Origin: a virus
Length of the DNA: 52,785 nt
Virus record (IMG/VR): IMGVR_UViG_3300046006_001177
Coordinates: 1-52,785 of that record
Strand: one strand, 5' to 3'
Below, in pieces: positions 30,675-47,414 of the stretch; within the stretch, counting starts at the first letter, position 1; each line of letters begins with the position of its first letter. Below the pieces are notes generated by a model that ran no database searches, was not told the origin of the DNA, and was given only the letters and a program-made list of their open reading frames with translations. A program made the translations under genes and the position numbers.

Positions 30675-30922
30675 AAGCATTTCCAATAACCAATGAGGTT
30701 GACTACAACAACGGCATGGACTTGCGGGATTACTTCGCAGCGAAGGCGATGCCGTTAGCGATGAAGTGGGTAGAACATAACTACAGCCAAGTATTGCATG
30801 GCAATGACTGGATGTGGGATGAGAAAGGGGATGAGGAAGAAGATGAGGACGATGCAACAGAAATTGCAGGCATTGCTTACCATATAGCAGATGCCATGAT
30901 GAAGGCGAGATCAAATGATTGA
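30671..30922 (+). CDS. Small acidic protein (83 aa)
   Basis: MKAFPITNEVDYNNGMDLRD, YFAAKAMPLAMKWVEHNYSQ, then a GDEEEDEDDATEI acidic run. The 'GMDLRDYFAAKAM' block is common in small phage proteins of unknown function. Overlaps the glycosyltransferase gene by eight bases. Confidence 0.65.
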   Translation: MKAFPITNEVDYNNGMDLRDYFAAKAMPLAMKWVEHNYSQVLHGNDWMWDEKGDEEEDEDDATEIAGIAYHIADAMMKARSND

Positions 30923-31679
30923 TGGCAAGCCCACCATCATGATTGGCACACCTGCCTACGGCGGTGCCATGTTCATGGAGTACGTCGACAGCCTAGTTCG
31001 GAACCTGTCTTTCCTAGAGCGGGAAGGGATAAAGACGCGCTGGCAGTTCATGAACAAAGAGGCGCTGATCACCCGCGCGCGCAACGAGATCGCCCGATAC
31101 TTCTTGGATGAGACACAGGATGACTACCTGATGTTCATAGATGCCGATATCTGGTTTCCCACCGACGGTATCTACCGGCTGCTCCAGCACAAGAAGGATG
31201 TGGTCTGCGGTATCTACCCGAAGAAGTTTCTATTCTGGGATCGTATCCGCAAGGCCGCGCTGCGCGGGGAGAAGGACATCGACAAGTTCGGCTGCTCGTA
31301 TGTGTTGAACGCGGTGAACGATCACGGCGACCCAGACAAGGTGCCGCTGGACGAGGACGGGCTGGTAGAAGTCCTGCACGGCGGCACAGGATTCATGATG
31401 ATCCACAGGAATGTACTGAAGGCGATGCGGTTCAAGGTACCCACCTACCGCACCAGCCTGATCCAAGATAATGGCCAGTTCTTAGCCCCGCTCACGCGAG
31501 AGTTCTTCGGCACCAGCATCACCGAACTCGGATTGCTGTTGTCAGAAGACTATCACTTCTGTGAGTTGTGGAAGAAGGAGGGTGGCAAAATATACGCCGA
31601 CCCCACCATTGAGTTACGCCACGTAGGCCAGCATGTCTACGCGGGTGATCTCATGCGGGCAGGCAGAAACAATACTTAG
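30915..31679 (+). CDS. GT-A-type glycosyltransferase (254 aa)
   Basis: Opens MIDGKPTIMIGTPAYGGAMF; LITRARNEIARYFLDE is followed by DYLMFIDADIWFPTDGIYRL with the metal-binding DAD, then VVCGIYPKK. This is the layout of a family of GT2-like enzymes in phages and bacteria. The gene at 36450 is a clear paralogue (RARN.., FIDADIHF, CGIYPKK). No signal peptide or membrane segment, so it works in the cytoplasm. Likely one of the transferases using the phage-made nucleotide sugars. Confidence 0.8.
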   Translation: MIDGKPTIMIGTPAYGGAMFMEYVDSLVRNLSFLEREGIKTRWQFMNKEALITRARNEIARYFLDETQDDYLMFIDADIWFPTDGIYRLLQHKKDVVCGIYPKKFLFWDRIRKAALRGEKDIDKFGCSYVLNAVNDHGDPDKVPLDEDGLVEVLHGGTGFMMIHRNVLKAMRFKVPTYRTSLIQDNGQFLAPLTREFFGTSITELGLLLSEDYHFCELWKKEGGKIYADPTIELRHVGQHVYAGDLMRAGRNNT

Positions 31680-31930: not shown

Positions 31931-32142
31931 GCCGGAGACTATTCCAGATGGCAAATGAAGCAGCAGAAGGCGAGGACCTGATCTACGCACCAGATGCTGC
32001 GGCGATGGCGTGGATGCGCAAGTTCTCAAAGATGGTCACCCTGGCAGAACGTGAGCGCTGCGCCACGCTGGTGGAGAAGATGGGCATGGAAGGCTACGGC
32101 ACGTTGGCTATCGCAGCAGCTATCAGGAAGGAAGAGGAATGA
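31927..32142 (+). CDS. Small helical protein (71 aa)
   Basis: MSRRLFQMANEAAEGEDLIY...FSKMVTLAERERCATLVEKM, ending AIRKEEE. Resembles many small phage proteins with a 'ERERCA.L.E' helix. The ATG at 31927 overlaps the preceding stop; the ATG at 31948 has GGAGAC upstream and is an alternative. Confidence 0.6.
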   Translation: MSRRLFQMANEAAEGEDLIYAPDAAAMAWMRKFSKMVTLAERERCATLVEKMGMEGYGTLAIAAAIRKEEE

Positions 32143-33119
32143 AGGTTGCTATCCAGAACCACTACGAGTTCATCACCCGTGACGGATACCTGTTCAAGAA
32201 TGAGAACAGCGACATCGGCCACAACCTGCTGCGGCCGTGGATGGAGTTGTACAACCTGTGCCGGGTGACGATAGAAATGCAAAGCATATGCCGGACAAAC
32301 GGCATCGAGCTGTACACACTGGATCAGGTAGACCCCAAGGAGCTGGACTTGGTCATCTACATGGATCGGCCACGAGTAGAGCCAGAGATCGGCAACGCCC
32401 GCAAGATCCTGATCCTCTACGAGCCAGACATCATCCTGCCTGACAACTGGGACACCGCGTACCACGATCAGTTCACAAAGGTGCTGACATGGGATGACCG
32501 GCTAGCAGGCAAGGGCATCTACGAGAAGCACAACTTCACCGTGGACTGGGAGAGCAGGCAGCGTTGCCATATCAGCCACAGCGAGTTCGAGCGCCGCAAG
32601 CTAATTGCCATGATCCAAACGGCTAAGAACATGCAGCATCCCAACAGTCTGTACCCGAAACGGATCGACGCAATATTCTGGTTTCAGCGTAACGCCATGT
32701 TCGACTTCGACCTGTACGGCAAGGGCTGGGATATCAAGACTTTCTTCTGCGCCAAGGGATCAACCAACAACAAGATCCAGACGTACAACAATTACCGCTT
32801 CGCCCTGACTTTCGAGAACTGCGACCACGCCGTCGGGTACATCAGCGAGAAGATCTTGGACGCCTTCATGGCCGGTGTCGTGCCGGTCTACTGGGGCGCA
32901 CCCAACGTGGCCGACCACATCCCGCGCGAGTGCTTCATCGACATGCGGGACTTTGGTGACTGGGAAGACTTGTACAACTACCTGTCTGGCATCAGTTACG
33001 AACGGTACATGGAATATCTGGAAGCCATCGACGCGTTCATCCGGTCAGAAGCGGCTATCCAATTTAGCAACGAACACGAAGTCAAACAGCTGTACAGATT
33101 AATAGAAGAACACAAATAG
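32139..33119 (+). CDS. GT10 alpha-1,3/1,4-fucosyltransferase
   Basis: 326 residues. Residues 219-262 carry the GT10 signature: YRFALTFENCDHAVGYISEK, ILDAFMAGVVPVYWGAPNVA, with Glu and Lys of the GDP-fucose site (FEN...YISEKI). The N-terminal half is the acceptor lobe (RKILILYEPDIILPDNW). Overall length is normal for bacterial GT10. It transfers fucose from GDP-L-fucose to a sugar acceptor in the cytoplasm. The genes that make the donor follow directly (gmd, fcl). Confidence 0.9.
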   Translation: MKVAIQNHYEFITRDGYLFKNENSDIGHNLLRPWMELYNLCRVTIEMQSICRTNGIELYTLDQVDPKELDLVIYMDRPRVEPEIGNARKILILYEPDIILPDNWDTAYHDQFTKVLTWDDRLAGKGIYEKHNFTVDWESRQRCHISHSEFERRKLIAMIQTAKNMQHPNSLYPKRIDAIFWFQRNAMFDFDLYGKGWDIKTFFCAKGSTNNKIQTYNNYRFALTFENCDHAVGYISEKILDAFMAGVVPVYWGAPNVADHIPRECFIDMRDFGDWEDLYNYLSGISYERYMEYLEAIDAFIRSEAAIQFSNEHEVKQLYRLIEEHK

Positions 33120-33128
33120 GAGAGTGAT

Positions 33129-33374
33129 ATGGAAGATATGCCAGATCATGTTAAGCAATTTGTCATGAAAGACAACGTTGTTGTTGAAGGCATTGATGCC
33201 AATTACGTCTGGTATAACGCCAGCCTTTTGAGGGGGAAGATGAGTTCTTGGGCAACGGACTTTGAGAAGGTAGTCAGCGTGATGGAGGCTAGGCACAAGG
33301 AACACATCAAGATGCTGCAAGACTTGATGGACGAGAACACAGAACTGAAAAAGAAATTGAAGGAAAAAGAATGA
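33129..33374 (+). CDS. Small coiled-coil protein (81 aa)
   Basis: [20 protein letters not shown], then a helix and a C-terminal coiled coil ([20 protein letters not shown]). TAGGAGAGTGAT before the ATG; ATGA overlap with gmd. Unknown; possibly a partner for neighbouring enzymes. Confidence 0.65.
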
Positions 33375-34357
33375 AAGCATTGATCACAGGAGTTACCGGA
33401 CAAGACGGCTCCTATCTGGCAGAACTGCTTTTATCAAAAGGGTACGAAGTCCACGGCATCAAGCGCCGCTGCTCTAACCTGAACACGGAGAGAGTCGATC
33501 ACCTGTTTAACAACCCGCACTTCCACCTGCACTACGGCGACATGACCGACGGCAGCAACTTGGCGCACATCGTCAAGAAGGTAAAGCCAGACGAGGTCTA
33601 CAACCTAGCCGCTCAGAGCCATGTGGCTGTCAGCTTTGAGCAGCCGGAGTACACGGCCAACGCCGATGCTGTCGGCACCTTGCGCCTGCTGGAAGCCTGT
33701 GTATTTACAGATGCCGCCTTTTACCAAGCATCCACCAGCGAGATGTTTGGCTCCAGCCCAGCGCCGCAGAATGAGGACACACCCTTCCGTCCGCGTAGTC
33801 CGTATGGCGCAGCCAAGCTGTACGCCCACTGGATCACGGTCAACTACCGCGAAGCCTACGGCATGTACGCCTGCTCCGGCATCCTGTTCAACCACGAATC
33901 CCCACGCAGGGGCGACACCTTTGTCACGCAGAAGATTGTCAAAGCACTGTGCCGGATCAAGAGGGGTCAGCAGAAGAAGCTGACGCTCGGCAACCTGGAC
34001 GCCATGCGGGACTGGGGACATGCCAAGGACTACGTCAACGCCATGTGGCTGATGCTCCAGCAAGAGGAGCCAGAAGACTTCGTGATCGCCACCGGCAGAC
34101 AGTACACCGTGCGCCAGTTCGTCGAAGCCGTGGCTTTGCGGCTAGGTATGAACATCGTCTGGAGCGGATCTGGCGTTAACGAGGTGGGCTTCTGCGATGG
34201 AAGGCTGATCATTGATATCGACGAGCGCTACCTGCGTCCAGCAGAGGTGGACAGCCTGTGCGGTGATGCCACGAAAGCCAGACAGAAGCTGGGATGGAAG
34301 CCGGTGATTACGTTTGATCAACTTGTGAATGAAATGGTGGAGGCTCAACTTGCATAA
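33371..34357 (+). CDS. gmd: GDP-mannose 4,6-dehydratase
   Basis: 328 residues, complete. Cofactor motif [13 protein letters not shown] (6-18), the GMD-specific [22 protein letters not shown] (121-127), and catalytic Tyr145 and Lys149 ([12 protein letters not shown]), then [16 protein letters not shown]. Converts GDP-D-mannose to GDP-4-keto-6-deoxy-D-mannose. The product feeds Fcl next door, and could also feed the RfbH-type enzyme downstream. GDP-mannose itself must come from the host, since no manB/manC is seen. Confidence 0.95.
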
Positions 34358-35273
34358 GAACGTCATGGTGCTTGGCCACAAGGGGATGGTCGGCCGAGCG
34401 ATAGCCAGATTGTTGAAGCACAAAAAGTACAACGTCATGACCGCTGACCTAGACCTGCGTATGCAGACCAGCGTGTTCAAGATGTTCGCTGAGAAGCCGG
34501 ACTACGTCTTCATCTGCGCGGCGAAGGTCGGCGGCATCATGGCCAACAAGACATTCCCAGCAGACTTCCTGTACGACAACGCCATGATCGCGCTGAACGT
34601 GTTGCGTCTCGCGCATCAGGCAGGCATTGATAACGTCATGTTCTTGGGATCGTCCTGCATCTACCCGAAGATGGCACCGCAGCCGATCAAGGAAGAGTAC
34701 CTACTGACCGGCCTTCTGGAACCCACCAACGAAGCCTACGCGATTGCCAAGATCGCCGGCATCAAGATGTGTGAGGCGTACAACAAACAGTACGGTCGCA
34801 AGTACATCTCTGTCATGCCCACCAATCTCTACGGCGTGGGTGACAAGTACGACCTTCAGAACAGCCATGTCCTGCCTGCGCTGATCCGCAAGGCGTACGA
34901 GGCCAAGGCCAACGGCGATGACACCATGACCGTCTGGGGTACCGGCAACGCCCAGCGTGAGTTCTTGTACGTCGACGATCTGGCAGAAGCCTGTGTCCAC
35001 CTAATGGAGATCGGCTACGACGGCGGGCTGATCAACATCGGCACCGGCCAAGACGTCACCATCAAAGAACTTGCCACCCTGATCTGCAAGACCGTGGGCT
35101 TTCGGGGCAAGCTGGAGTTCGATGCCACCAAGCCTGACGGCACACCACGCAAGCTGCTGGATGTATCCAAGATCAACGAACTGGGATGGAAGGCTAGAAC
35201 CTCACTCGCCGATGGCGTGAACGAGACGTTCAAAGACTTCCTGCGTATGCACTTGATGAAGGGAGTTACATGA
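34350..35273 (+). CDS. fcl: GDP-L-fucose synthase
   Basis: 307 residues from a TTG at 34350 (GGAGG six bases before; overlaps gmd by eight). Motifs: [16 protein letters not shown] (Rossmann), [20 protein letters not shown] (Fcl-specific), [35 protein letters not shown] with catalytic Tyr and Lys, and [18 protein letters not shown]. Epimerises and reduces GDP-4-keto-6-deoxymannose to GDP-L-fucose. An ATG at 34365 is an alternative start but lacks a good Shine-Dalgarno. Confidence 0.93.
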
Positions 35274-35983
35274 TCTCCGTTGCCGTAGTTACCAGCACAC
35301 AGGGCAGAGATACCCTGAGACAATGTATAGCCAGCGTTCAAACCCAAACTTATAAAGCTACCCACTATGTATTCGCCCATGGCAAAGAGCATTCCGACAA
35401 AGTCCAGTCTCTGGTATCGAGTGACACGGTCGCCGTCTACCTACCTTGCGCTAATGGCGGCGGTGGTCTTGCTATGGCTCCTGTATTTGCTGCTGCACCC
35501 TATCTCATCAACGAAGATCTCATCTTCTACCTCGACGACGACAACTACTACGACCCCGACCACATCGAGTCCCTCGTTGCGTTGATGCAGGATCACGACT
35601 TGGGCTGGGCGTACAGCCTGCGCAAGATCGTGGACAACGAAGGCGGCTACATCTGTGATGACAACTGCGAGTCACTGGGTATGCAGCCGAACGCCAGCGG
35701 ACATTACTTGGTAGACAACTCTTGCTACGCGGTCAGGGCAGACATCGCCCGCAAGCACAGCCATGCGTGGTACGTGCCGGTGGTATCTGACCGTTCGTTC
35801 CAAGCATCACTCATGCAGGCCAAGATCAAATGCGGCACTACTGGGAAGCACAGTGTGTCTTACAGACTATCTCACGACGGTTCAGGAGGAATGAGCAAAC
35901 AGGCTTTCATTAACAACAACGAGTTCATGCGTAGCAAGTTCACGGACTTCCCGTGGACGAAGCGACAAATCTGGAAATACTAG
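35270..35983 (+). CDS. GT2-family glycosyltransferase (237 aa)
   Basis: [20 protein letters not shown] is a GT2 opening; YLINEDLIFYLDDDNYYDPD holds the DDD metal site; later a D-rich acceptor region (SLGMQPNASGHYLVDNSCYA) and SYRLSHDGSGG. Adds a sugar from a nucleotide donor; donor and acceptor unknown. ATGA overlap with fcl. Confidence 0.82.
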   Translation: MISVAVVTSTQGRDTLRQCIASVQTQTYKATHYVFAHGKEHSDKVQSLVSSDTVAVYLPCANGGGGLAMAPVFAAAPYLINEDLIFYLDDDNYYDPDHIESLVALMQDHDLGWAYSLRKIVDNEGGYICDDNCESLGMQPNASGHYLVDNSCYAVRADIARKHSHAWYVPVVSDRSFQASLMQAKIKCGTTGKHSVSYRLSHDGSGGMSKQAFINNNEFMRSKFTDFPWTKRQIWKY

Positions 35984-35992
35984 GAGATCTAA

Positions 35993-36457
35993 ATGGAAAG
36001 AATTGTTCCGTTAAGCACAGAACGCATCGAAGCAAAGGTGGAAAAAATTCCAGAAGCAGGCTGTTGGATATGGACTGGAACAACCACGGTCAGGGGCTAT
36101 GGCCAAATTATTAGCAACAACAGGAAACACTACGCCCACAGGGCAAGTTACGAAGCATTTATCGGACCCATACCGGAAGGAATGAACGTTTGCCATGCTT
36201 GCGACAATGTTTATTGCGTCAACCCTGCCCATCTTTTCCTTGGCACCCAGAAACAAAACTTGGAAGACATGGCAAGAAAGAAAAGAAGCACTCTCGGAGA
36301 AAAAAATCCGATGGCGAAGTTAAGAAGCAAAGATGTCCAAGATATCAAACACCGCATCAATCTAGGAAATTCTGACTCCAAGATAGCTTTGGAGTTCAAT
36401 GTTTCTCGGCAAACAATTAACAACATTAAACATGGAAGGGTTTGGAAAAATGGCTAA
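35993..36457 (+). CDS. HNH homing endonuclease (HNH_3 type)
   Basis: 154 residues. HNH_3 core: GCWIWTGTTTVRGYGQIISN, AHRASYEAFIGPIPEGMNVC, HACDNVYCVNPAHLFLGTQK; C-terminal HTH LRSKDVQDIKHRINLGNSDS, KIALEFNVSRQTINNIKHGR for target binding. A/T-rich compared with neighbours. It lies exactly between a TAGGAGATCTAA Shine-Dalgarno context and the next start codon, and overlaps the next gene by eight bases, so it appears to have inserted at the start of the glycosyltransferase gene. Confidence 0.9.
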   Translation: MERIVPLSTERIEAKVEKIPEAGCWIWTGTTTVRGYGQIISNNRKHYAHRASYEAFIGPIPEGMNVCHACDNVYCVNPAHLFLGTQKQNLEDMARKKRSTLGEKNPMAKLRSKDVQDIKHRINLGNSDSKIALEFNVSRQTINNIKHGRVWKNG

Positions 36458-37214
36458 ATTATTTGTCAGTACGCCAATGTATGGGGGCCAGTGCTTTGGC
36501 TACTTCGCGCAGTCCGTGATGACACTACAGAACATGCTGCGTGAGAACCGCGTGGACATGGCCTGCTCATTCCTGTTCAACGAGTCCCTGATCCAGCGGG
36601 CACGTAACGCACTGGTGCATGGTTTCCTGAAGACAGACTTCACCCACATGATGTTCATCGACGCGGACATCCACTTCAACCCGGCAGACGTGCTGCCCAT
36701 GCTGTTGTCAGACAAGCCAATCATCTGCGGCATTTATCCCAAGAAGGAGATCAACTGGACACAGGTTCATGCTGCTGCCGTGGCTGGTGTGCCACCGCAT
36801 GAGCTGCGCAAGTACAGCGGCTCCTTCGTGGTCAACCTGATTGACTACCAGAACGAGCAACGGGTAGAACTGGACAAGCCGGTAGAGATCTGGAACGGCG
36901 GCACTGGCTTCATGATGATCAAGCGCGAGGTCTTCGAGCAGCTGAAGGATCATGTGCCTACCTATGTCAACGACACCAATGACCTTGGTGGGAACATCGG
37001 CAACGAGCGTATCCATGAGTTCTTTGCTACCAGTATCGAACCGCTGGGCGAGCGCCTGCTGTCGGAGGACTACCACTTCTGCAAGATCTGGCGTGACAAG
37101 TGCGGCGGCACCGTCTGGGCGGCACCGTGGGCGCAGCTCGCACATATCGGTACTCACAAGTTCGACGGCATCCTGACAGAGAAGCCACAGATCCCTCAAC
37201 CACAAGAGGTGTAA
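36450..37214 (+). CDS. GT-A-type glycosyltransferase, paralogue of the gene at 30915
   Basis: 254 residues from ATG 36450 (MAKLFVSTPMYGGQCFGYFA); the upstream frame extension lies in the HNH gene. RARNALVHGFLKTDFTHMMF then IDADIHFNPADVLPML with the DAD metal site, CGIYPKKEINW, WNGGTGFMMIKREVFEQ, LLSEDYHFCKIW. Same block order as the enzyme at 30915. The first ~13 codons are A/T-rich (GCT AAA TTA TTT) unlike the remainder, possibly acquired with the HNH gene. Confidence 0.82.
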   Translation: MAKLFVSTPMYGGQCFGYFAQSVMTLQNMLRENRVDMACSFLFNESLIQRARNALVHGFLKTDFTHMMFIDADIHFNPADVLPMLLSDKPIICGIYPKKEINWTQVHAAAVAGVPPHELRKYSGSFVVNLIDYQNEQRVELDKPVEIWNGGTGFMMIKREVFEQLKDHVPTYVNDTNDLGGNIGNERIHEFFATSIEPLGERLLSEDYHFCKIWRDKCGGTVWAAPWAQLAHIGTHKFDGILTEKPQIPQPQEV

Positions 37215-38441
37215 ATGTTCGTACCCGGCAAAACCTATATCCCTGCCTCCGGCCAAGTGGTCGGAGATCGGGAGAAAGCGTTGATGCACGAAGCCGTCGA
37301 CCGTGGGTGGTTGACGGCGGGCGCCTTCAATCGCCAGTTGGAAGATGAGCTGACCAAGTTCCTCGGCTGCAAGGCCGTGCGTACCGTCAGCTCTGGCAGC
37401 TCCGCCAACCTGATCGCCTTCTCCGCCCTGACATCGCCAACCCTTGGCAACAGGGCTATCCAGAAGGGAGATGAGGTGATCACGGTTGCCTGCGGATTCC
37501 CGACCACCATCGCGCCGATCATCCAGTGCGGTGCCATCCCTGTGTTCTTGGATGTCAACAGTACGTTGAACATCGACACCCGTGAGCTGGAGAACGCGGT
37601 GACGAAGAAGACCAAGGCCATCATGATCGCCCACACGCTGGGCAATCCGTTCAACGTGGACGCAGTCAGGGCGCTAGCAGACAAGCACAAGCTATGGCTG
37701 ATAGAAGACTGCTGCGACGCGCTGGGCGCACGGTGGGGCAACCGCTACGTCGGCACGTTCGGCGACTTGGCCACGCTGTCTTTCTTCCCGGCGCACCACA
37801 TCACAACCGGTGAGGGCGGTGCTGTCATTATCAACAACACCAAACTCAGCCGATTGGTAGAGTCCTTCCGTGACTGGGGCAGAGACTGCTGGTGCGAGCC
37901 AGGACAGAACAACACCTGCAAGCGCCGGTTCGATCAACAGTTCGGAGAGTTGCCGTACGGGTATGACCACAAGTACGTGTACACACATCTGGGCTACAAC
38001 CTGCGGATCACCGAGCTACAGGCTGCCTGCGGCGTGGCACAGATGGAGAAGCTGCATCACTTCATCTCCACCCGTAAGTCCAACTACGGCTACCTGAAAG
38101 AGCGACTGACCGGAGAGGAGTTCTGGCTACCGGCTGTCTACCCAGAAGCAAGCCCAAGCTGGTTCGGGTTCCCGATCACGATCTCTCCGTCGGCCAACTT
38201 CACGCGGGATGAGTTGACCAAGTTCCTAGAGTCGCGCCAGATCGGATGCAGGCTGGTGTTTGCAGGCAACGCCATCAAGCAGCCGTTCATGCAAGGCCAG
38301 CGTTATCGCGTCCACGGCCTGCTGGAGAACACGGACTACATCATGAACAACACCTTCTGGCTGGGTGTGCAGCCTGCGCTGACAGAGGAGATGCTGTTAT
38401 ACGTCTGCGACACCATTGATGAGTTTATGGAAAGTCGCTGA
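37215..38441 (+). CDS. rfbH: RfbH/E1-type sugar 3-dehydratase (PMP, [2Fe-2S])
   Basis: 408 residues, DegT/DnrJ fold. SFFPAHHITTGEGG at 189-202 has His where aminotransferases have the PLP lysine, the hallmark of the E1 3-dehydratase. Cys167, Cys225, Cys227 and Cys235 give exactly the CX57CX1CX7C iron-sulfur pattern of E1. It removes the 3-hydroxyl of a 4-keto-6-deoxy nucleotide sugar, normally CDP-linked; here the Gmd product could also be the substrate. A partner reductase is not seen in the window. Followed by a split transketolase. Confidence 0.88.
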   Translation: MFVPGKTYIPASGQVVGDREKALMHEAVDRGWLTAGAFNRQLEDELTKFLGCKAVRTVSSGSSANLIAFSALTSPTLGNRAIQKGDEVITVACGFPTTIAPIIQCGAIPVFLDVNSTLNIDTRELENAVTKKTKAIMIAHTLGNPFNVDAVRALADKHKLWLIEDCCDALGARWGNRYVGTFGDLATLSFFPAHHITTGEGGAVIINNTKLSRLVESFRDWGRDCWCEPGQNNTCKRRFDQQFGELPYGYDHKYVYTHLGYNLRITELQAACGVAQMEKLHHFISTRKSNYGYLKERLTGEEFWLPAVYPEASPSWFGFPITISPSANFTRDELTKFLESRQIGCRLVFAGNAIKQPFMQGQRYRVHGLLENTDYIMNNTFWLGVQPALTEEMLLYVCDTIDEFMESR

Positions 38442-39202
38442 TGGCAGAGCTAAAAGCAATCCAAGACATGGCCAAGAAGATCAGGATCGACAGCCTGAAG
38501 ATGGTTCATCGGGCGAAGGCATCCCACATCGGCAGCGCTCTGTCCTGTGCAGACATCTTGGCTGTTCTGTACTCAGACTTTGCCGAGGATAAGCTCATCC
38601 TGTCGAAAGGTCATGCCACCGTCGCCTTGTACGCAGCACTGAAGCACAGCGGCTACAACCTGAATCTGGAGGAGTACGGCCAGAACGGATCGCCGTTGAT
38701 GCACCACGCCAGCCACAAGGTGCCGGGTGTCGAATGGTCGACAGGCAGTCTTGGCCATGGTCTGCCAGTGGGTGTCGGAAAAGCGATAGCCAGTGATCAG
38801 CACAAAGTCCGCGTGCTGGTATCTGACGGTGAGCTACAGGAGGGCAGCAACTGGGAGGCCATCATGTTTGCTGCTCACCACAAGCTTAACAACCTGACCA
38901 TGATTGTGGACTACAACAATCTCCAGAGCATCACGACGGTGGATAAGACCCTGTCGCTAGAGCCACTGGACGCCAAGCTGCGGGCGTTTGGCTGGGATGT
39001 GCAGGACATCGACGGCCATGATCCTCGGTACATCTTCAAGGCGTTGATCCGTACGCTAGATGCCGAGAAGCCGACGGCCATCATCTGCCGCACCACCAAG
39101 GGCAAAGGCGTCTCCTTCATGGAGAACAAGGTGGAGTGGCACTACAAGTACCCCGATGAGCAGCAGTTGATCCAAGCCATTATGGAGATCGAGCATGCGT
39201 AA
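38441..39202 (+). CDS. Transketolase N-terminal subunit
   Basis: 253 residues. HRAKASHIGSALSCADILAV, LSKGHATVALYAALK, GSLGHGLPVGVGKAIA, and the ThDP/Mg motif VSDGELQEGSNWEAIMFAAH ... VDYNNLQS. Shorter than the matching part of housekeeping transketolases, and split from its partner, as in sugar-biosynthesis clusters. The start overlaps the rfbH stop by one base (TGATG). Likely transfers a two-carbon unit with the next gene's product. Confidence 0.9.
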   Translation: MAELKAIQDMAKKIRIDSLKMVHRAKASHIGSALSCADILAVLYSDFAEDKLILSKGHATVALYAALKHSGYNLNLEEYGQNGSPLMHHASHKVPGVEWSTGSLGHGLPVGVGKAIASDQHKVRVLVSDGELQEGSNWEAIMFAAHHKLNNLTMIVDYNNLQSITTVDKTLSLEPLDAKLRAFGWDVQDIDGHDPRYIFKALIRTLDAEKPTAIICRTTKGKGVSFMENKVEWHYKYPDEQQLIQAIMEIEHA

Positions 39203-40046
39203 CATCCTGATGGAAGAACTGACCATCGCCGCCGAGCGTGGTGATCCTGTCATGCTGATCACCGGCGACTTGGGCTGGGGCGTGGTAGAGGAGTTTGCCA
39301 AACGCTTTCCCAAGAACTTCATCAACGCTGGCGTGGCAGAGCAGAACATGATGGGCATGGCTGCTGGGCTAGCATCTGAGGGCTATCACGTCTTCGTCTA
39401 CAGCATCGGTAACTTTTCCACCTTCCGCTGTGCCGAGCAGATCAGGAACGACGTGGATTATCACAACGTGCCTGTGACGGTCGTGACAGTCGGCGGTGGT
39501 CTAGCCTACGGCAATCTGGGCTACAGCCATCACGCCGTGCAGGACTTTGCCTTGATGCGATCTATGCCCAACATGCTGATCGCCTCACCCTGCGATGACC
39601 TAGAAGCGCGGGCGTGTATCCAATACCTACTTGAGAATCCACAGCCCAGCTACCTGCGTCTTGGCCGAGGCGGGGAGAAGCAGATACACAAGAAGATGTA
39701 CAAGATGGCGCCAGGCAAGTGGTATCCCTTTGATGTCGTGGAGGGCGACAAAGCTTACGTGGCGCACGTATTCACAGGCACCCCGCCAGTCAGGCTAACA
39801 GCGCCGGGCGAGTACTACACCTGCCCGCTATGGGGTATGAAGTACAAGGAAGATCAAAGTTACATGGCGGGGGATTTTGAACACATCACCACCTACGAAG
39901 ATCATCTTGAAGACGGCGGGTTCGGCAGCTGGATGCTGGAGTCTTTGCACAAATGGGACATATCCGTTTCTGTGAAAGCACTGAACTCTAAGGTCTGCGG
40001 CATGGTCGGAGACAGAGAATACTTACTCAAACAGGGAGAGCTATGA
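39195..40046 (+). CDS. Transketolase C-terminal subunit
   Basis: 283 residues: pyrimidine-binding domain with VMLITGDLGWGVVEEF, the catalytic-Glu segment INAGVAEQNMMGMAAGLASE, YSIGNFSTFRCAEQIRND and GGGLAYGNLGYSHHAVQDFA, then a C-terminal domain (HITTYEDHLEDGGFGSWMLE). Completes the enzyme with the preceding subunit. In this context the acceptor is probably a 4-keto-3-deoxy nucleotide sugar rather than a pentose phosphate; this is inference. Confidence 0.9.
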   Translation: MRNILMEELTIAAERGDPVMLITGDLGWGVVEEFAKRFPKNFINAGVAEQNMMGMAAGLASEGYHVFVYSIGNFSTFRCAEQIRNDVDYHNVPVTVVTVGGGLAYGNLGYSHHAVQDFALMRSMPNMLIASPCDDLEARACIQYLLENPQPSYLRLGRGGEKQIHKKMYKMAPGKWYPFDVVEGDKAYVAHVFTGTPPVRLTAPGEYYTCPLWGMKYKEDQSYMAGDFEHITTYEDHLEDGGFGSWMLESLHKWDISVSVKALNSKVCGMVGDREYLLKQGEL

Positions 40047-40954
40047 GAATCGTCATCATGGGTGCGGGGAGTACCGTTGCCAAAGACTTAATCACTTCTT
40101 TCAACGACGAGCATTTCCTAGAGCTGTTCTCGCGGGAGCCGTCTTCGGCATCACGTTGGATGGTGGAGAAGGGTTTTAAGAACTTCTTTGCCCGCCCGTA
40201 CGCTGACTTCAAATCACTGAAGGATGCGGACGTGATCATCAACTTCGTCGGCGCTGGTGACCCTGCGATGATCCAGCGGCTGGGCGCAGATATCTTCAAG
40301 ATCACGCAAACCTTTGACGAAATGGCGCTGGATTACATCAATCAGCACCGCGAGTGTAAGTACATTTTCATTAGCAGCGGGGCAGTCTTCGGGGACAACT
40401 TCCTGACCCCAGCAGATGCCAACAAGAACGCCATCATCCCGATCAACAACGTACAACCACAGCACTACTACGGTATCGCAAAGGCGCAGGCTGAGATCCG
40501 CCATCGCGTGACTGGCCGCAACATCATTGACCTGCGGCTGTACAACTACTTCAGCAGCACCTGCAACCTGAAGCAGCGGTTCATGATCAGCGACATCATC
40601 CGTGCCATCCAGACAAAGACAGTGTTCCAAGTCGACCGCAATAACATCATGCGCGACTACGTCGGACCGCTGGACTTCTACCAGATGATCTACGTGCTGA
40701 TGAATACCGGCCAGATCAACACGGCGATAGACTGCTACAGCAGACAGCCAGTGAGCAAGACATCACTGCTCACCACCATGGCAGAACGATATGGGCTAGA
40801 GTACGAGACTGTCGGAAACCTGACAGGCCTGTCTCCTACGGGTGTGAAACAGAATTACTACTCTACCAACACGGCAGCGTATGCACTGGGATACCGGCCA
40901 ACGCTGACCTCACTGGAGACGATCATCCTTGCTGCCGACAAAATCCTCAAGTAA
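40043..40954 (+). CDS. SDR-family sugar reductase/epimerase
   Basis: 303 residues. Rossmann start MRIVIMGAGSTVAKDLITSF, IFISSGAVFGDNF (Ser), and YYGIAKAQAEIRH with catalytic Tyr and Lys. The glycine motif GAGSTVA is slightly unusual. NAD(P)-dependent nucleotide-sugar reductase or epimerase; its position right after the transketolase suggests it reduces the branched product. ATGA overlap with the gene before. Confidence 0.82.
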   Translation: MRIVIMGAGSTVAKDLITSFNDEHFLELFSREPSSASRWMVEKGFKNFFARPYADFKSLKDADVIINFVGAGDPAMIQRLGADIFKITQTFDEMALDYINQHRECKYIFISSGAVFGDNFLTPADANKNAIIPINNVQPQHYYGIAKAQAEIRHRVTGRNIIDLRLYNYFSSTCNLKQRFMISDIIRAIQTKTVFQVDRNNIMRDYVGPLDFYQMIYVLMNTGQINTAIDCYSRQPVSKTSLLTTMAERYGLEYETVGNLTGLSPTGVKQNYYSTNTAAYALGYRPTLTSLETIILAADKILK

Positions 40955-41271: not shown

Positions 41272-41542
41272 GCAGTACATGAACGAAGTAGCCAACATAG
41301 GCTGCGTGCTGTGTCACCATCTTGGCTACGGGCATACGCCTGCTCATCTGCATCATCCCCGCGACGCTGTAGGCGGGGCGCAGCGGGCTTCTGACTGGCT
41401 AGTAATACCGCTCTGCCCTGAACATCATCAGGGATCGAGCGGCTATCACGGGCTAGGTAGCAAGGGCTTTTACACACGGTACAAGCTCACCGAGTGGGAT
41501 CTGATGGCCATGACTATCGAGAGGCTGCATACTGCTTCTTGA
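41258..41542 (+). CDS. Ref-like HNH nuclease (94 aa)
   Basis: Start TTG 41258 with GGAG eight bases before it: (M)KPVKQYMNEVANIGCVLCHH. Then LGYGHTPAHLHHPRDAVGGAQRAS (split as LGYGHTPAHLHH and GGAQRASDW), and LCPEHHQGSSGYHG. This is the pattern of the RecA-dependent nuclease Ref of phage P1 and relatives ('CVVC...LGYG.TPAEIHH....AQRAS....LCP.HH'). Probably acts in recombination or DNA degradation. Its end overlaps the polyvalent gene tail to tail by 29 bases. Confidence 0.8.
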   Translation: MKPVKQYMNEVANIGCVLCHHLGYGHTPAHLHHPRDAVGGAQRASDWLVIPLCPEHHQGSSGYHGLGSKGFYTRYKLTEWDLMAMTIERLHTAS

Positions 41543-44500
41543 CCTCTAGCCGCGACTCCTCCATCTGGCGGGCGATCTCACCGATCACCACCTTCAACCG
41601 GTCGATCTCTTCCTTCTTCTGAGCGCCAGACATGTTCTCGTCGTTACGAATATGCAGGATGGCCTGACGCATCTTTGCCATATCCTTGGACGCGTTATCG
41701 TAGAACTTGGCCATGGCGATCTTGTCACCCTTCTCCTTCAGGATCTCCTGCACTTTGTCCGCGTTGCCTAGCTGCGCGAAGTGGCGCATATCAGCGTAAG
41801 CCTGGGCGATCTCCTTGTTGTTCTCGTAGAACGCTGTAACGTACTTGGACTGCGTGGCTGGCAGCGTCTTGATAAAACCAGCAGACATGGTCTCAGTCCA
41901 GTTGTTATCAGGATACGCAGACTTTGAGAACGGCTGTACAGCGTAGTGCGACAACCATGAAGCAGTACCGCCTAACCAGCCTAGATAACCCTTGATGGCG
42001 TAGTCTGCCTGCACCGGAGATACCTCTGTGCTTTCCGGCAGGAAGACGTTGGTGACCTTGGATAGCGCGATGGCCAGCGGGCTAGTCTTCTCAGCAATAC
42101 GTTCTGCCTTAGACAGACGCTCCATACCAGCAGTCTCAATCGGTGCGCCTGTGAAGCTGTCCTTGTTAGCGTACAGATCTACCAGCGGTTTGATGACCTG
42201 CGGGATCGGGTTGATCGCAAAGGTGTCTGTCAGCATGCGCTTCAAGCTCTGCTCAAATACCTTGCCCTCTGCGCCTTGGTCAAAGATCTGCTCTGCTACG
42301 CGCTCAACCATCGTGCCAAATGCGCCAATCTCAAATGGCTTTGGAACTCGTACAGCAGCGTCCATACCGGGCAGCTTGAACCACCAGAAGTTATCCCGAT
42401 CCCACTGCTCGCGCTTTTTGAACTCCTCGTCATCCTTGAATGCCATGTACAACATCAAAGACGCTAGTGCCACAGCAGACATGACAATGCTGAACTGCTC
42501 TGCTTTCTGCTTGTCGGTTGCGCTGATGTCTTTGCCATTAACGGTGTTGTAGATCACCCGGCTGGTCGGCACGATGCCGTCACGGCCAAGCTTGTACAAA
42601 CCCTGCACGCGAGCATTCAAGAACGGGATGACCTGTGTGACCAAGCGGAAGGCAGGCCACGCACCTTGCATGGAGAAGTCCAGCAGATCGCGGGCGTAGA
42701 ACGATGCCTCAAGGTGGGTAAAATTCTCACCCGTCTTCGGATTAACCGTGTCTCGCAGCTGCTGGTACAGCGCCATACGGTTGGCAGATTCCGACTTGTT
42801 GCCCAGATCTTGGTAGGCAGTCCATGTCGTGCGCAGCGCGTTCGTTATCTTGCTCTTGTTATCAAGGATGTTCTCACCCTTGATGCCCTGATCCAGCAGC
42901 CGACGGATCATCTTTGACTGATCGCCTTCGTACGCAGAACCAAAGTTGAAGATGGCACCACCTGCCAGTGCTGAGATATGCGCAGGATTGTTGCGGTCAG
43001 ATGCCGCCCAGCCCTGAATCACGTTGGCAAACGGGTTGCGCTTCAAGTCTGATACTGCGATAGCCGAGATGGAATCACGGAACAAGTTGCGAATCTTGAA
43101 CGCTGGAGACAGCGTGACGCCAAATTGCAGCAGGTTCTTGAAGTCACGGGCGATGTCTAAGAACTTAGACTTCGGACCCATGTACCCAATAGACATGATG
43201 GATTCCAGCAGCAGCGGATCAGCTACTTCGAAGTACGCAGGCTTGCCGTCGATCATGGTCTGGATCTTGCCCTTGCCGCTGGTGGTGTACTCCGGCTTTA
43301 GCTTGCCGTCACCGATCATCTCGCCACTCTTGTCGCTGTAGACCTTGCCATCTTCCCAGCGCAGACCAACCTTCAGGTTCGGGAATGCTGCACCGACATC
43401 CATCGCCGCACGAATCGTGGCGTTAGCGGCTTCGTTCTTCATCGACGAAGACAGGATGTGGCTCCAGTTACGCAGGGTGTTTTCCATCAGATCGCCGAAC
43501 GGACGCTCACCGCCCTTCAGCGCCTTCGAGAAGTACTGGTTTACCAGTCCCGACTTGGTGGCCGCAGCCTGCACGTCGCCACCCTCATCCATCACCTTGT
43601 AGAACGGGATGTAGTTGATGTCGCGCCGGAAAATCTTGTACGCTTCTTTGTCAATCACGCCCTGCCGTAAGGCGATGCTTAGTACAGAACCGTTAAGCCT
43701 TTTCATGTCCCGCTGAACTTGCTCGTACACCTCTAGGCGTGACTTGTTACCGATCTTGCCAGCAGATAGTTCGTCACGGCGCTGCACCAACTCCTTCGAC
43801 ACAGACGGTGCTTTGCCTTTCCTTACAAGCTCGGCATCACGCTGCAACGCTACCCAGATCTGATACCGGTCTACCTCGTTACCCACAGGCTCTAGCGCCT
43901 GCATGAGTCCTTTGGTATTGGGCTTGATATCCAGAGCGCCGTTAGTCAGCTTGACCTGGCCGTTGAACAGGATGCCCTCCAGCGCCCCGTCGATTGTCTT
44001 GGACATGCGGGCTTTCATGTAAGCCTCTTCGCTGTAGTCCTTGATAGTACGGTACTGATCGGCTATGCCCTGTGCCAGACGCTGCCAGAAGCTGTCGCGC
44101 ATGCTGTCGATCTTCTGGATGATGTTCTTGTTCTGCGGGAAGAAAGTCTTGCTGATCTGCGACCAAACATCATCAGACACGCCATCGAAGCTAGGTGGCT
44201 TGTCCTTGGGTGCGCCCTCTTTCATGCGCTTCCACTTCTCTTCCAAGAAATCTTGGTTGCGCTTGGGCTCTTCATCCTTGGGAACGTCAGAGAAAGGCTC
44301 ACGCTCTTCAGAAACCTCCGGCGTAGACACGCCATACCTCGCACCGTACGAGGTGAACTGCTTGGCAATATCCTCTACTGGCACTTCCAGCGTTTCTTCC
44401 GACAGTGATACCAGACGCTCCAGCGCACTCTGCTCTGACCTGTTGATAGCAAGCAGGCGGCGGATAGCATCCACAAACCGCGTGAATGCGTTCTTGTCCT

Positions 44501-47414
44501 TGAAGTCCACGTCAGCCAGATACTTCTGCACCTCGATCTCTGACATGCCGTAGGAGATCAGCTCATGTACATCTTTTAAGGCCTGCCGAGTGTTCAGCTT
44601 TGGCGGTACAGGAACGTTGTTAGCCTGATCTGCTTTGACCTTTTTGATGATGAACTTGCGCAGTTTCTCAAGGTCTTGGTAAGGACCGATAAGATTCTTA
44701 GCTTTGGTCTTCTCTGCAATCGTGAGCTGTCCCTGTGTCGCAAGATGCAGCATCTCGTGCAGCAGTGTGCGGTAGTTCGTACCCTCAACCTTCTTCTCTT
44801 GTCCGGCAACGTTCGGGCCATTGATGGTTACGTCGAACTTAGCCTCTGGCAAAGTCCAACCTGTGACCATGCCATAAACATTCTTACGCCGACGACCGCC
44901 ACGCAGCACCTTGAACGACATCGGTATGCCGCGATCTTGCATCGACTTCACACGCGCGCGCACAGCTTGCGCTACGATCTTTGCGAAGCTATTAGGCGCG
45001 TTGGCTATCAGCCAGTCAGCCACCTCTATCACATTCATGCCATCTACTTCTTTGGCAATCTCTGTGGTTGACTTGTCGATCTTGTACTCTTGCTTCTCTG
45101 GCTGCTCTACAGCTACCGGCGCAGGCGCAGTAGGCTCACCGCGCAACACCGCAAACACGTCCTCGATAGGACGCGCGACAGGTGCATTGCCAAACAGATC
45201 TGGTCCACCCTGTGTTTCTGTGTATGCCTTCTGTGCTTCTGCTGCCAGACTACTCAGAGAATCGCCGATTCTGCGTGGTGCATTCTTGTTGGCGGCAAAC
45301 ATGCTGACTACCTCGCGGGTCAGCGGATCCATCTCGATGTCACCCTGATCTACGTACGTAGCTAGGTCTACACCCTGCCGACGTGCGTTGACTGCCAGCT
45401 CTGCTGCTTTCGCTACATACTGCCGGACGTCATAGTCACCAGCGCCTTCCAGGTTCGACATGGCGGGCGCAGCAATCGACATCCCTTTCAGGATCTGCTG
45501 TGCTTCTGGGTCGGTTGCCTCTGCGTACAGATCGATCAGCGCGTCATTCGCGTACGCCTTTGCAAACAGTGCGTTGGCTAGACGTAGCTTTGCTATCGGA
45601 TTGGGCTGGCCTTGTCTGTTGATCAGATTCGCCTGCTCTTCCTGCGGCATAGCGGCAACAAACTGCCGCAGCGATTTCAAGGACGCGTTGCCATCTGCAA
45701 GGAACTCGATCCCCTGCAAGTCAAACCTGCCCATGTCAATCTTTGCCTGCTCTGTCGGGGACATGCCAAGCTGACCGCCGACGTTGCTCTTGTCAGCAAT
45801 ATCAGGCGTGAGTGCTGATTTGGGCATGATCCGCACCAGCATGGGCTGACCAACCTGACGTATGACCTCTGGGTCTATGCCATGGCTAGGATCATTGACC
45901 AAGCTGCTGACGTAGTCGTTCGCCGTTCCCTCTTGGAATGCTCGCTGCAATCCGGCAACACGACCATTACCTGCTACCGGACGAATGCCAGAGAACTCAG
46001 GATCTGCGTACTCAGGGACTGTTGTGCCATCTGCGCGATTGCTAGGGACAATAAAGCCAGCGTCAATCACCGCATACTGCACAGGTATTTTCGTGCCATC
46101 AGAGGCAGACACTGTGTCGATGCGTCCCAACCGCTGCGAGTTTAATTCCACATCACTGATTACCACGGGTGCGCCAGCGCCAAAGTCTTTAGACACAGAC
46201 AGTCGGTTGTAATCAGGCTCTGCCGCAATGCTGGTCATCTGCTGAATAGATGCTGGCTTAGAACGATCACGGTTCTGGATGTCAGAGAACGACATGCCGA
46301 AGTCTTCTGGCTTGCCCTCCCAGTAATTGGTCATCGCAGACACAGCATCATCTGATGGTGGGGCAAATGAAGGCGGTGAAGGCGGTGGTTCCACAGGAGG
46401 TGCGGCTTCTGTGGGAGGTGGTGCAGCAGCAGGAGGCGCAGCAGCTGGTTCCGCAGTTGGCTCTGCTGTAGGTGCCGGTGGTTTTTCCGCAGGCGCTTCT
46501 CTGCGACCAGTCACGCCTGCCGCAGTACCAAGACCCAAGCCGCCAACAGCAGCCATACCCATCGTCTCGCCCAAACCTTCTGTCAGGCTGCGAGTGGGAT
46601 CAACCTTTTGTACCGCAAGGTTCTGCGCTACCTTGCCGCCGCCTTCTTCAATCGCTTCGCTGATAGCTTCGCCAGCACCACCTTTGATGCCGCCAAGAAT
46701 CCTGCCGCCCTTGATCGGTGTCTTGGCCATCGCCCGCTCAATAGCGCGACCGCCCGGCAACATCTGAGCAGCAATAGATATGACGCCAGCTTCGAGGCCG
46801 GCAGTACGTGCGTAGCCCAGCACACGGCCAGTAGCTTCTTCCGGCGATACGCCTTGGTCTACCAGCTTCTTATGTAGCTCTTTGAACGTCTCTGCACCGA
46901 TATCTGCGCCCTGCTGCGTAGCACCTGTGCCGACAGCGCCTGCCACGGCCGTGCGTGCGCCAGCACCGGCAAGACTCAAGCCGCGTGCAACTGCTAATCC
47001 GGGGAGAAGATTGGGTGCCTGCTCTGCGATGAAATTACTGAGCAGCGCAGGATTGGCGATGGTTTCTTTGAATGCTGTAATACCAGCAGACAGCTCGCCC
47101 TCTTTGCCGGCTTCTTTGATCTTGGCTGCACGCTCTGCTTCCAAGCGTTTCAGCTCTTCCGACTTCATGCCTTCGCCGGTCTCACGCAGCTGACGGCCAA
47201 CCTTGGTCAAACCAGTATCAGAGAACTCGCCCGTAGCTAGGCCGTATAGCTGACCCGGTAACTGTGCCAACGCACCAGCACCGGATACCAGTCCGGCGCC
47301 TACGTCTTTGATAGCTTCGCCAGTCGTGCGACCGCGCTTTACAGGTTCATCAAACTGGTCAAACGGATTGCCAGCTTTGGTTGCAACGTCAAACTGGTCA
47401 AAAGGGTTTGCCAT
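41514..47414 (-). CDS. Giant polyvalent virion protein (1966 aa)
   Basis: N-terminus has two NPFDQFD repeats (residues 3-22), common in ejected phage proteins. About 110-300 is Gly/Ala-rich and hydrophobic, suited to membrane insertion; 305-355 is a Pro/Ala linker. About 400-560 is a DdrB-like ParB domain (LGRIDTVSASDGTKIPVQYA, IRPVAGNGRVAGLQRAFQEG). A zinc-protease-like motif LLHEMLHLAT lies near 886. About 1400-1700 is LPD38-like (FLDIARDFKNLLQFGVTLSP, FKIRNLFRDSISAIAVSD), then a transmembrane-like segment (VMSAVALASLMLYMAF). It is probably packaged and injected with the DNA. Last gene of the virion module. Confidence 0.85.
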   Translation of the reverse strand: MANPFDQFDVATKAGNPFDQFDEPVKRGRTTGEAIKDVGAGLVSGAGALAQLPGQLYGLATGEFSDTGLTKVGRQLRETGEGMKSEELKRLEAERAAKIKEAGKEGELSAGITAFKETIANPALLSNFIAEQAPNLLPGLAVARGLSLAGAGARTAVAGAVGTGATQQGADIGAETFKELHKKLVDQGVSPEEATGRVLGYARTAGLEAGVISIAAQMLPGGRAIERAMAKTPIKGGRILGGIKGGAGEAISEAIEEGGGKVAQNLAVQKVDPTRSLTEGLGETMGMAAVGGLGLGTAAGVTGRREAPAEKPPAPTAEPTAEPAAAPPAAAPPPTEAAPPVEPPPSPPSFAPPSDDAVSAMTNYWEGKPEDFGMSFSDIQNRDRSKPASIQQMTSIAAEPDYNRLSVSKDFGAGAPVVISDVELNSQRLGRIDTVSASDGTKIPVQYAVIDAGFIVPSNRADGTTVPEYADPEFSGIRPVAGNGRVAGLQRAFQEGTANDYVSSLVNDPSHGIDPEVIRQVGQPMLVRIMPKSALTPDIADKSNVGGQLGMSPTEQAKIDMGRFDLQGIEFLADGNASLKSLRQFVAAMPQEEQANLINRQGQPNPIAKLRLANALFAKAYANDALIDLYAEATDPEAQQILKGMSIAAPAMSNLEGAGDYDVRQYVAKAAELAVNARRQGVDLATYVDQGDIEMDPLTREVVSMFAANKNAPRRIGDSLSSLAAEAQKAYTETQGGPDLFGNAPVARPIEDVFAVLRGEPTAPAPVAVEQPEKQEYKIDKSTTEIAKEVDGMNVIEVADWLIANAPNSFAKIVAQAVRARVKSMQDRGIPMSFKVLRGGRRRKNVYGMVTGWTLPEAKFDVTINGPNVAGQEKKVEGTNYRTLLHEMLHLATQGQLTIAEKTKAKNLIGPYQDLEKLRKFIIKKVKADQANNVPVPPKLNTRQALKDVHELISYGMSEIEVQKYLADVDFKDKNAFTRFVDAIRRLLAINRSEQSALERLVSLSEETLEVPVEDIAKQFTSYGARYGVSTPEVSEEREPFSDVPKDEEPKRNQDFLEEKWKRMKEGAPKDKPPSFDGVSDDVWSQISKTFFPQNKNIIQKIDSMRDSFWQRLAQGIADQYRTIKDYSEEAYMKARMSKTIDGALEGILFNGQVKLTNGALDIKPNTKGLMQALEPVGNEVDRYQIWVALQRDAELVRKGKAPSVSKELVQRRDELSAGKIGNKSRLEVYEQVQRDMKRLNGSVLSIALRQGVIDKEAYKIFRRDINYIPFYKVMDEGGDVQAAATKSGLVNQYFSKALKGGERPFGDLMENTLRNWSHILSSSMKNEAANATIRAAMDVGAAFPNLKVGLRWEDGKVYSDKSGEMIGDGKLKPEYTTSGKGKIQTMIDGKPAYFEVADPLLLESIMSIGYMGPKSKFLDIARDFKNLLQFGVTLSPAFKIRNLFRDSISAIAVSDLKRNPFANVIQGWAASDRNNPAHISALAGGAIFNFGSAYEGDQSKMIRRLLDQGIKGENILDNKSKITNALRTTWTAYQDLGNKSESANRMALYQQLRDTVNPKTGENFTHLEASFYARDLLDFSMQGAWPAFRLVTQVIPFLNARVQGLYKLGRDGIVPTSRVIYNTVNGKDISATDKQKAEQFSIVMSAVALASLMLYMAFKDDEEFKKREQWDRDNFWWFKLPGMDAAVRVPKPFEIGAFGTMVERVAEQIFDQGAEGKVFEQSLKRMLTDTFAINPIPQVIKPLVDLYANKDSFTGAPIETAGMERLSKAERIAEKTSPLAIALSKVTNVFLPESTEVSPVQADYAIKGYLGWLGGTASWLSHYAVQPFSKSAYPDNNWTETMSAGFIKTLPATQSKYVTAFYENNKEIAQAYADMRHFAQLGNADKVQEILKEKGDKIAMAKFYDNASKDMAKMRQAILHIRNDENMSGAQKKEEIDRLKVVIGEIARQMEESRLEVKKQYAASR

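Follow-up and report, generated by a model that had tools for sequence, protein, structure and literature searches.

Why would a phage carry, in an uninterrupted row, the genes of a nucleotide-sugar dehydratase, of the two halves of a transketolase and of a reductase, and which sugar could be made with them? The question is raised by positions 37215-40954 of a metagenomic viral contig of 52,785 nt (IMG/VR record IMGVR_UViG_3300046006_001177; hereafter the window, i.e. the whole stretch of DNA analysed). Four intact open reading frames (ORFs), all on the + strand, encode: (i) RfbH, an E1-type CDP-4-keto-6-deoxyglucose 3-dehydratase of 408 aa (37215-38441); (ii) TktN, the N-terminal half, binding the diphosphate of thiamine diphosphate (ThDP), of a split transketolase of a nucleotide-sugar subfamily, 253 aa (38441-39202); (iii) TktC, the C-terminal, pyrimidine-binding half, 283 aa (39195-40046); and (iv) SDR1, an extended short-chain dehydrogenase/reductase (SDR) of 303 aa and the proposed branch ketoreductase (40043-40954). 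Successive genes overlap by 1, 8 and 4 nt, in agreement with the 1-8 bases given in the initial annotation of this DNA. To judge from gene order, the arrangement is not one of chance, because it is seen again in bacteria and in related phages.

Most probably, the four genes represent the later half of a branched-sugar pathway that starts from CDP-glucose, in which dehydration by RfbH would be followed by ThDP-dependent addition of a two-carbon branch at C4 and by ketoreduction. In the steps that we infer, RfbF and RfbG of the host would provide CDP-4-keto-6-deoxy-D-glucose, the host also contributing the ferredoxin-type reductase (E3), and the phage RfbH would take off the 3-OH to give CDP-4-keto-3,6-dideoxy-hexose. 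TktN-TktC, as a ThDP enzyme retargeted from sugar phosphates, would then move a hydroxyacetyl group from a ketose donor to the C4 ketone with formation of a tertiary alcohol, and SDR1 would reduce the branch ketone. The predicted product, CDP-3,6-dideoxy-4-C-(1,2-dihydroxyethyl)hexose, would be related to yersiniose but hydroxylated, and could be attached to a glycan by glycosyltransferases of the phage. The donor, the stereochemistry and the glycan acceptor are proposed in the same conditional sense as every chemical step. The order dehydration, C4 branching and reduction had been put forward in the initial annotation; the support that it now receives is comparative, and comes from the position of the block after rfbF-rfbG in bacteria, from the YerE-like enzymes found in the same slot, and from the loss of residues that recognize sugar phosphates.

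The four enzymes and their active sites

The assignment of RfbH is the firmest. The protein scores 636.6 bits against the NCBIfam equivalog NF011936 (cut-off 423), its closest solved relative is Yersinia E1 (3bcx, E 2.5e-155, aligned end to end), and E1 is by far its nearer relative (520 bits, against 198 bits for ColD). His194 (FFPAH194H) aligns with the residue that is Lys in 3bb8, an entry with Lys where E1 has the catalytic His, while Cys167, Cys225, Cys227 and Cys235 reproduce exactly the CX57CX1CX7C pattern of the [2Fe-2S] cysteines. Thus, both the His-for-Lys change and the cysteine spacing announced in the initial annotation are present, and an aminotransferase is ruled out since the pyridoxal phosphate lysine is absent. 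A 57% RfbH match in the 2.6-kb contig of Salmonella phage S.Kent resembles bacterial DNA and was not used.

TktN matches Pfam PF00456 (Transketolase_N, 114 bits) and TktC matches PF02779 (Transket_pyr, 108 bits), and their closest solved relatives, 6yak and 6yaj, are the two chains of one split transketolase, so that the two halves had been correctly recognized. PHROGs gives them no assigned function. With residues numbered on E. coli TktA, the pair retains the ThDP catalytic residues His26, His66, His100, His261, His473, Glu411, Asp155 and Asn185, and has Arg at the Arg358 and Arg520 positions. It carries the changes His461 to Gly, Asp469 to Leu, Phe434 to Ile and Ser385 to Gly, the last being an alignment-dependent assignment that falls in a gap of the alignment used for the transketolase tree. 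Across the subfamily, His461 is replaced by Gly, Asp469 by Leu or Met and Phe434 by Ile; the ThDP motif of TktN reads SDG, not GDG. The split transketolases of Clostridia and Nitrospirota retain His461, Asp469 and Phe434. In transketolases, His461, Ser385, Arg358 and Arg520 make the contacts with the sugar phosphate, and Asp469 senses the acceptor aldose through its 2-hydroxyl. Given these roles, the changes at the His461 and Asp469 positions point to a different acceptor for TktN-TktC. As a separate observation, the window TktN is about 11-13 residues shorter than its bacterial relatives in the loop preceding LILSKGHA.

Phages are known to carry pentose-phosphate genes, and the family matches of the pair would fit an ordinary pentose-phosphate transketolase that boosts host nucleotide metabolism and has nothing to do with RfbH. 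Such an enzyme would not be expected to have lost the equivalents of His461 and Asp469, to group with a subfamily linked to CDP-sugar genes, or to be replaced at the same slot by YerE-like enzymes. On these grounds of active-site residues and gene context this explanation was rejected, and we hold it to be very improbable.

SDR1 is a divergent extended SDR with a Pfam Epimerase match of 31 bits, a Rossmann start (MRIVIMGAGST) and the YxxxK motif as YYGIAK; it has no match in PHROGs or NCBIfam and no meaningful match in the PDB by sequence. An AlphaFold model built from 22 relatives (pLDDT 89.9, in place of a poor model from four sequences with pLDDT 70) was compared by Foldseek, which returned nucleotide-sugar SDRs with TM up to 0.83, among them 2pk3, a GDP-4-keto-6-deoxymannose reductase, and 8v4g/8v4h, a C. 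jejuni CDP-glucitol reductase. By its modelled Rossmann fold and YxxxK motif, SDR1 is an extended SDR of the nucleotide-sugar type, and the SDR expected as the fourth gene is therefore there, though divergent. Structural neighbours that include both reductases and epimerases leave room for SDR1 to act elsewhere on the sugar, by reduction or epimerization (e.g. at C2), so that the branch made by the ThDP enzyme would stay a ketone; the use of unrelated SDRs (SDR2 and SDR3) in this role in other bacterial clusters would be in keeping with that. SDR1, however, follows three kinds of carboligase in phages and two in bacteria, as expected of a branch ketoreductase, and yersiniose-type sugars need a ketoreductase of this kind, which was uncharacterized as of 2016 (PMC4753412), so that action elsewhere on the sugar is rated as unlikely.

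The same block in bacteria and the source of the substrate

If the block acts on a CDP-sugar, its bacterial relatives would be expected close to the genes for the first steps. The best 80 bacterial loci with TktN relatives were inspected, and the subfamily (33 of the 80) was defined by a ThDP motif reading SDG, by Gly in place of E. coli His461, or by both. Full-length rfbF and rfbG lie within about 10 kb in 17 of the 33 subfamily loci and in none of the other 47, and rfbH is nearby in 9 of 33 versus 0 of 47 (Fisher p 1e-8 and 2e-4, respectively, values that overstate independence as the loci are related). Three loci (L006, L009 and L013, in our numbering) have the order rfbF-rfbG-rfbH-SDR2-tktN-tktC, with a rfbI-like reductase gene in the last two. 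In Gallionella (L007) the order is rfbF-rfbG-rfbH-tktN-tktC-SDR1, which is that of the four phage genes; the search for the same block in bacterial clusters, advised in the initial annotation, has thus found it in identical order behind rfbF-rfbG. Curated models identify the neighbours in L006 and L007 as glucose-1-phosphate cytidylyltransferase and CDP-glucose 4,6-dehydratase. Both the tree and the SDG/Gly461-type residues place the window pair in the split-transketolase clade of such CDP-sugar clusters.

SDR1 is rare in the genomes sampled, being found in 1 of 369 from the class of Gallionella, 7 of 399 from the order of Duganella, 2 of 385 from the class of L019 (a Pelagibacterales metagenome-assembled genome, MAG) and 0 of 395 from the class of L027 (a Bacteroidetes MAG). 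Where it occurs, its company is constant: rfbG and a ThDP carboligase are close by in all ten bacterial SDR1 loci, rfbF is seen in nine (the stretch of L266 ends before rfbF could show) and rfbH is present in nine, the exception, L273, having the weakest SDR1 match (32%). The carboligase is YerE-type in six of them and a split transketolase in four, L007 included, so that the alternation of the two kinds occurs in bacteria too; in Burkholderiales loci as well, YerE-like proteins hold the carboligase position. The YerE-type protein of L265 scores 562 bits against 5ahk, which we take to be PpYerE, and 266 bits against the runner-up; the transketolases of L270 and L271 also carry Gly461 and Leu469.

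The initial annotation left two sources of substrate, host CDP-4-keto-6-deoxyglucose or the product of the phage Gmd, and had noticed that the window lacks CDP-glucose genes. The scan confirmed this lack, with no rfbF and no above-threshold rfbG. Of the two sources, the first is favoured and the second disfavoured. It is true that the genes of Gmd and a Fcl-like enzyme lie on the same strand, 2-4 kb upstream, and ColD does carry out 3-dehydration on a GDP substrate, so that RfbH could use GDP-4-keto-6-deoxymannose and the branched sugar would be GDP-linked. Yet a family scan shows no Gmd-like dehydratase in 19 of 23 related contigs, though RfbH and/or SDR1 are kept, the bacterial block sits with rfbF/rfbG, RfbH is nearer to E1 than to ColD and has the E1 Fe-S cysteines, and Gmd and Fcl pair naturally in making GDP-fucose for the GT10 enzyme. 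The Gmd product was rejected as RfbH substrate, most related phages having no Gmd, and a GDP-linked route is considered quite improbable. The host is the probable supplier of both CDP-4-keto-6-deoxyglucose and the electron donor, because the phage contigs appear to lack rfbF, rfbG and a ferredoxin-type reductase.

The same absence is also the first of several points that weigh against a CDP-sugar branching pathway. No rfbF was found in 23 phage contigs, window included, and for rfbG there were only sub-threshold Gmd-type cross-matches in four of them; 11 of these contigs are 61-67 kb long and the records may be fragments. Clustering with rfbF/rfbG is seen for about half of the bacterial subfamily members and for none of the phage contigs. 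No Fer2 domain, as in the E3 partner of RfbH (RfbI/AscD), was detected by the domain scan of 13 phage contigs (the window and 12 relatives); E3 being the product of a separate gene that the host could supply, this limits self-sufficiency and not the family membership of RfbH. Secondly, the acceptor varies within the subfamily, since some members have rfbF/rfbG and no rfbH and others a DegT aminotransferase. Thirdly, the donor may not be a ketose phosphate, because the altered residues also help to bind the donor phosphate in ordinary transketolases. To our knowledge, no member of this transketolase subfamily has been assayed. According to a 2025 review, it is unproven that transketolases act on keto sugars (PMC12247030).

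A related branch of the subfamily (L023-L028, L033-L035 and L085) lies beside a DegT-type aminotransferase gene instead of rfbF/rfbG, which suggests branched amino-sugars or another keto-sugar acceptor.

Exchange of the carboligase among related phages

Besides the window, scans of IMG/VR turned up 24 contigs in which the island recurs and the slot can be read, which makes 25 in all. As far as each contig reaches, the island order is a glycosyltransferase set, RfbH, carboligase and SDR1 (L005, L230 and L231 end before RfbH). In all 25 the slot before SDR1 holds a ThDP carboligase: five contigs (the window, L002, L088, L251 and L005) have a split transketolase there, six a single-chain enzyme of about 594 aa, and fourteen an enzyme of the acetolactate synthase (ALS)/YerE type that is encoded by two genes (about 337 + 244 aa). 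The single-chain enzyme has JanthE (8rph) as its closest solved relative, with 376 bits, above ordinary acetolactate synthases; 8rph is also top-ranked, less clearly, for the N half of the two-gene enzyme. The latter is split into N+M domains followed by the C domain, as in L229 (8257-10004, 4-nt overlap), L234, L237, L246, L249 and nine others. The pair of the window belongs to the transketolase type and does not have the TPP_enzyme_N/M/C architecture of YerE, to which it corresponds by position only.

That the carboligase has been repeatedly replaced follows from near-identical flanks around unrelated slot genes. For 4.9 kb, as far as the end of RfbH, the DNA of L088 (transketolase) is 96.9% identical to that of L239 (YerE-like); the slot itself has nothing in common, and similarity resumes right at the start of the SDR gene (86.7%). 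The same pattern holds for L002 and L240 (93.8% before the slot, 91% after), while in L251 and L238 (87.4% before the slot) the SDR was exchanged along with the transketolase. On the RfbH tree, the four transketolase phages are scattered, a tree forcing them together being 357 log units worse (approximately unbiased test, p 1.7e-37), and no fewer than four switches between the transketolase and YerE types have to be assumed. The transketolase tree unites the phage pairs in a single clade (100/100), which is nested in the CDP-sugar clade (100/100). Because the phages are scattered on one tree and their transketolases united on the other, the phylogeny indicates that a cassette of the transketolase genes has passed from phage to phage. 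L088 and L239 hardly differ in the genes for the glycosyltransferases and SDR1, so that presumably the same transferases and reductase handle both transketolase-type and YerE-type sugars. As the enzyme is repeatedly replaced gene-exactly within a conserved island, selection to vary a sugar is suggested, and these phages appear, from their gene content, to vary the shape of one sugar.

A wider proposal, to which we would give somewhat less than an even chance, is that an aquatic phage lineage varies a sugar on its particles or on the infected cell by gene-exact swaps of non-homologous ThDP carboligases between a fixed dehydratase and a reductase, the transketolase version leading to a 4-C-dihydroxyethyl sugar via a reaction, that of a transketolase with a nucleotide-linked ketone, not yet demonstrated for any enzyme. 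Being a metagenomic viral contig with genes that have bacterial relatives, the window might in principle contain bacterial DNA, misassembled or packaged; the recurrence of the island in conserved order in about 25 phage contigs and the separate clade of the phage RfbH proteins (100/100) make this extremely improbable.

Neither SDR1 nor the 10-kb island has a match in 50,697 phage records, and the phages closest by terminase, DSL-LC04 and 023Pt_psg01, show no sugar genes in the record stretches read and name no specific host. In eight further viral contigs (L161, L166, L171, L193, L215, L216, L218 and L225), the transketolase pair is very short, with about 206-235 aa for TktN and about 157-181 aa for a TktC seemingly devoid of the C-terminal domain; it has Gly in place of His461 and lies near a RfbH that is about 40-50% identical.

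Known branching systems and the neighbouring glycan genes

The pathway type, i.e. CDP-3,6-dideoxy sugar, ThDP-dependent branching and reduction, is already known from yersiniose, which is made in Yersinia and in other O-antigens from CDP-glucose by RfbF, RfbG, RfbH, RfbI, YerE and a ketoreductase. The phage shares with it RfbH, a C4-ketone ThDP carboligase and a reductase, and differs in that the carboligase is a two-gene transketolase, the predicted branch is hydroxyacetyl and not acetyl, and the genes are in a phage with the first steps left to the host. The family known to attach carbon at C4 of CDP-3,6-dideoxy-4-keto-glucose is that of the YerE-like enzymes (PMC12247030). In sister phages, JanthE and its like fill the operon slot of the transketolase as its counterpart in function, although they belong to a different ThDP superfamily (decarboxylase/ALS type) with a different domain architecture. 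The split transketolase of Carboxydothermus hydrogenoformans (6yaj/6yak) has the two-chain architecture, but the phage pair is devoid of its His (THAGL) and Asp (GEDG) at the phosphate/acceptor site. The miharamycin and amipurimycin split transketolases of Streptomyces, likened here by description, are also two-gene enzymes with proposed keto-sugar hydroxyacetylation (PMC12247030); they belong to antibiotic clusters, whereas the setting here is an operon for a CDP-3,6-dideoxyhexose, found in phages and in clusters of surface-glycan type.

The open-licence literature searched holds no prior description of RfbH with a transketolase or of phage yersiniose, though one may exist elsewhere. As far as that literature goes, three things would be new: the putative branching role of a transketolase in surface-glycan-type clusters, the presence of such an enzyme in phages, and its having been swapped repeatedly with the YerE-like kind. 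The 2025 review lists transketolase action on a nucleotide-sugar ketone as pending, with candidates from Streptomyces only (PMC12247030); a concrete set of split transketolases expected to act on such a ketone is now available, and the SDR1 family is nominated for the branch-reduction step of yersiniose-type sugars. For phage biology, the locus offers a case of repeated gene-exact replacement by a non-homologous enzyme in a conserved glycan island.

The other glycosyltransferase and nucleotide-sugar genes of the island are all on the + strand. A putative glycosyltransferase (phrog_1574, 36399-37214) abuts RfbH and is kept beside it in related phages, and a second phrog_1574/GT2-like glycosyltransferase lies at 30915-31679. 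A GT10-family, fucosyltransferase-like enzyme (32139-33119; PF00852, 63.5 bits) is conserved in relatives, and a GT2-family glycosyltransferase (35270-35983; PF00535, 34 bits) belongs to the same island. Between the GT10 and GT2 genes are those of Gmd, the GDP-mannose 4,6-dehydratase (33371-34357; TIGR01472, 527 bits), and of the Fcl-like GDP-fucose synthase that travels with it (34329-35273; NF047922, 459 bits, below the cut-off of 500). The two (33371-35273) are optional in the island, since only the window, L241, L242 and L243 have them and the other relatives covering the place do not; they probably represent a separate GDP-fucose branch outside the RfbH pathway. The predicted branched sugar may be destined for the virion, the phage DNA or the host surface. 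No flippase or polymerase was recognized among the genes examined, the scan having covered part of the window ORFs. An HNH endonuclease with a resolvase-like helix-turn-helix (35993-36457) sits between two glycosyltransferase genes that are adjacent in L241 and L242, and its gene is probably a mobile insertion. On the other side, the island is adjoined by the gene of a 1966-aa polyvalent protein with LPD38 and ddrB-ParB domains, on the - strand (41514-47414).

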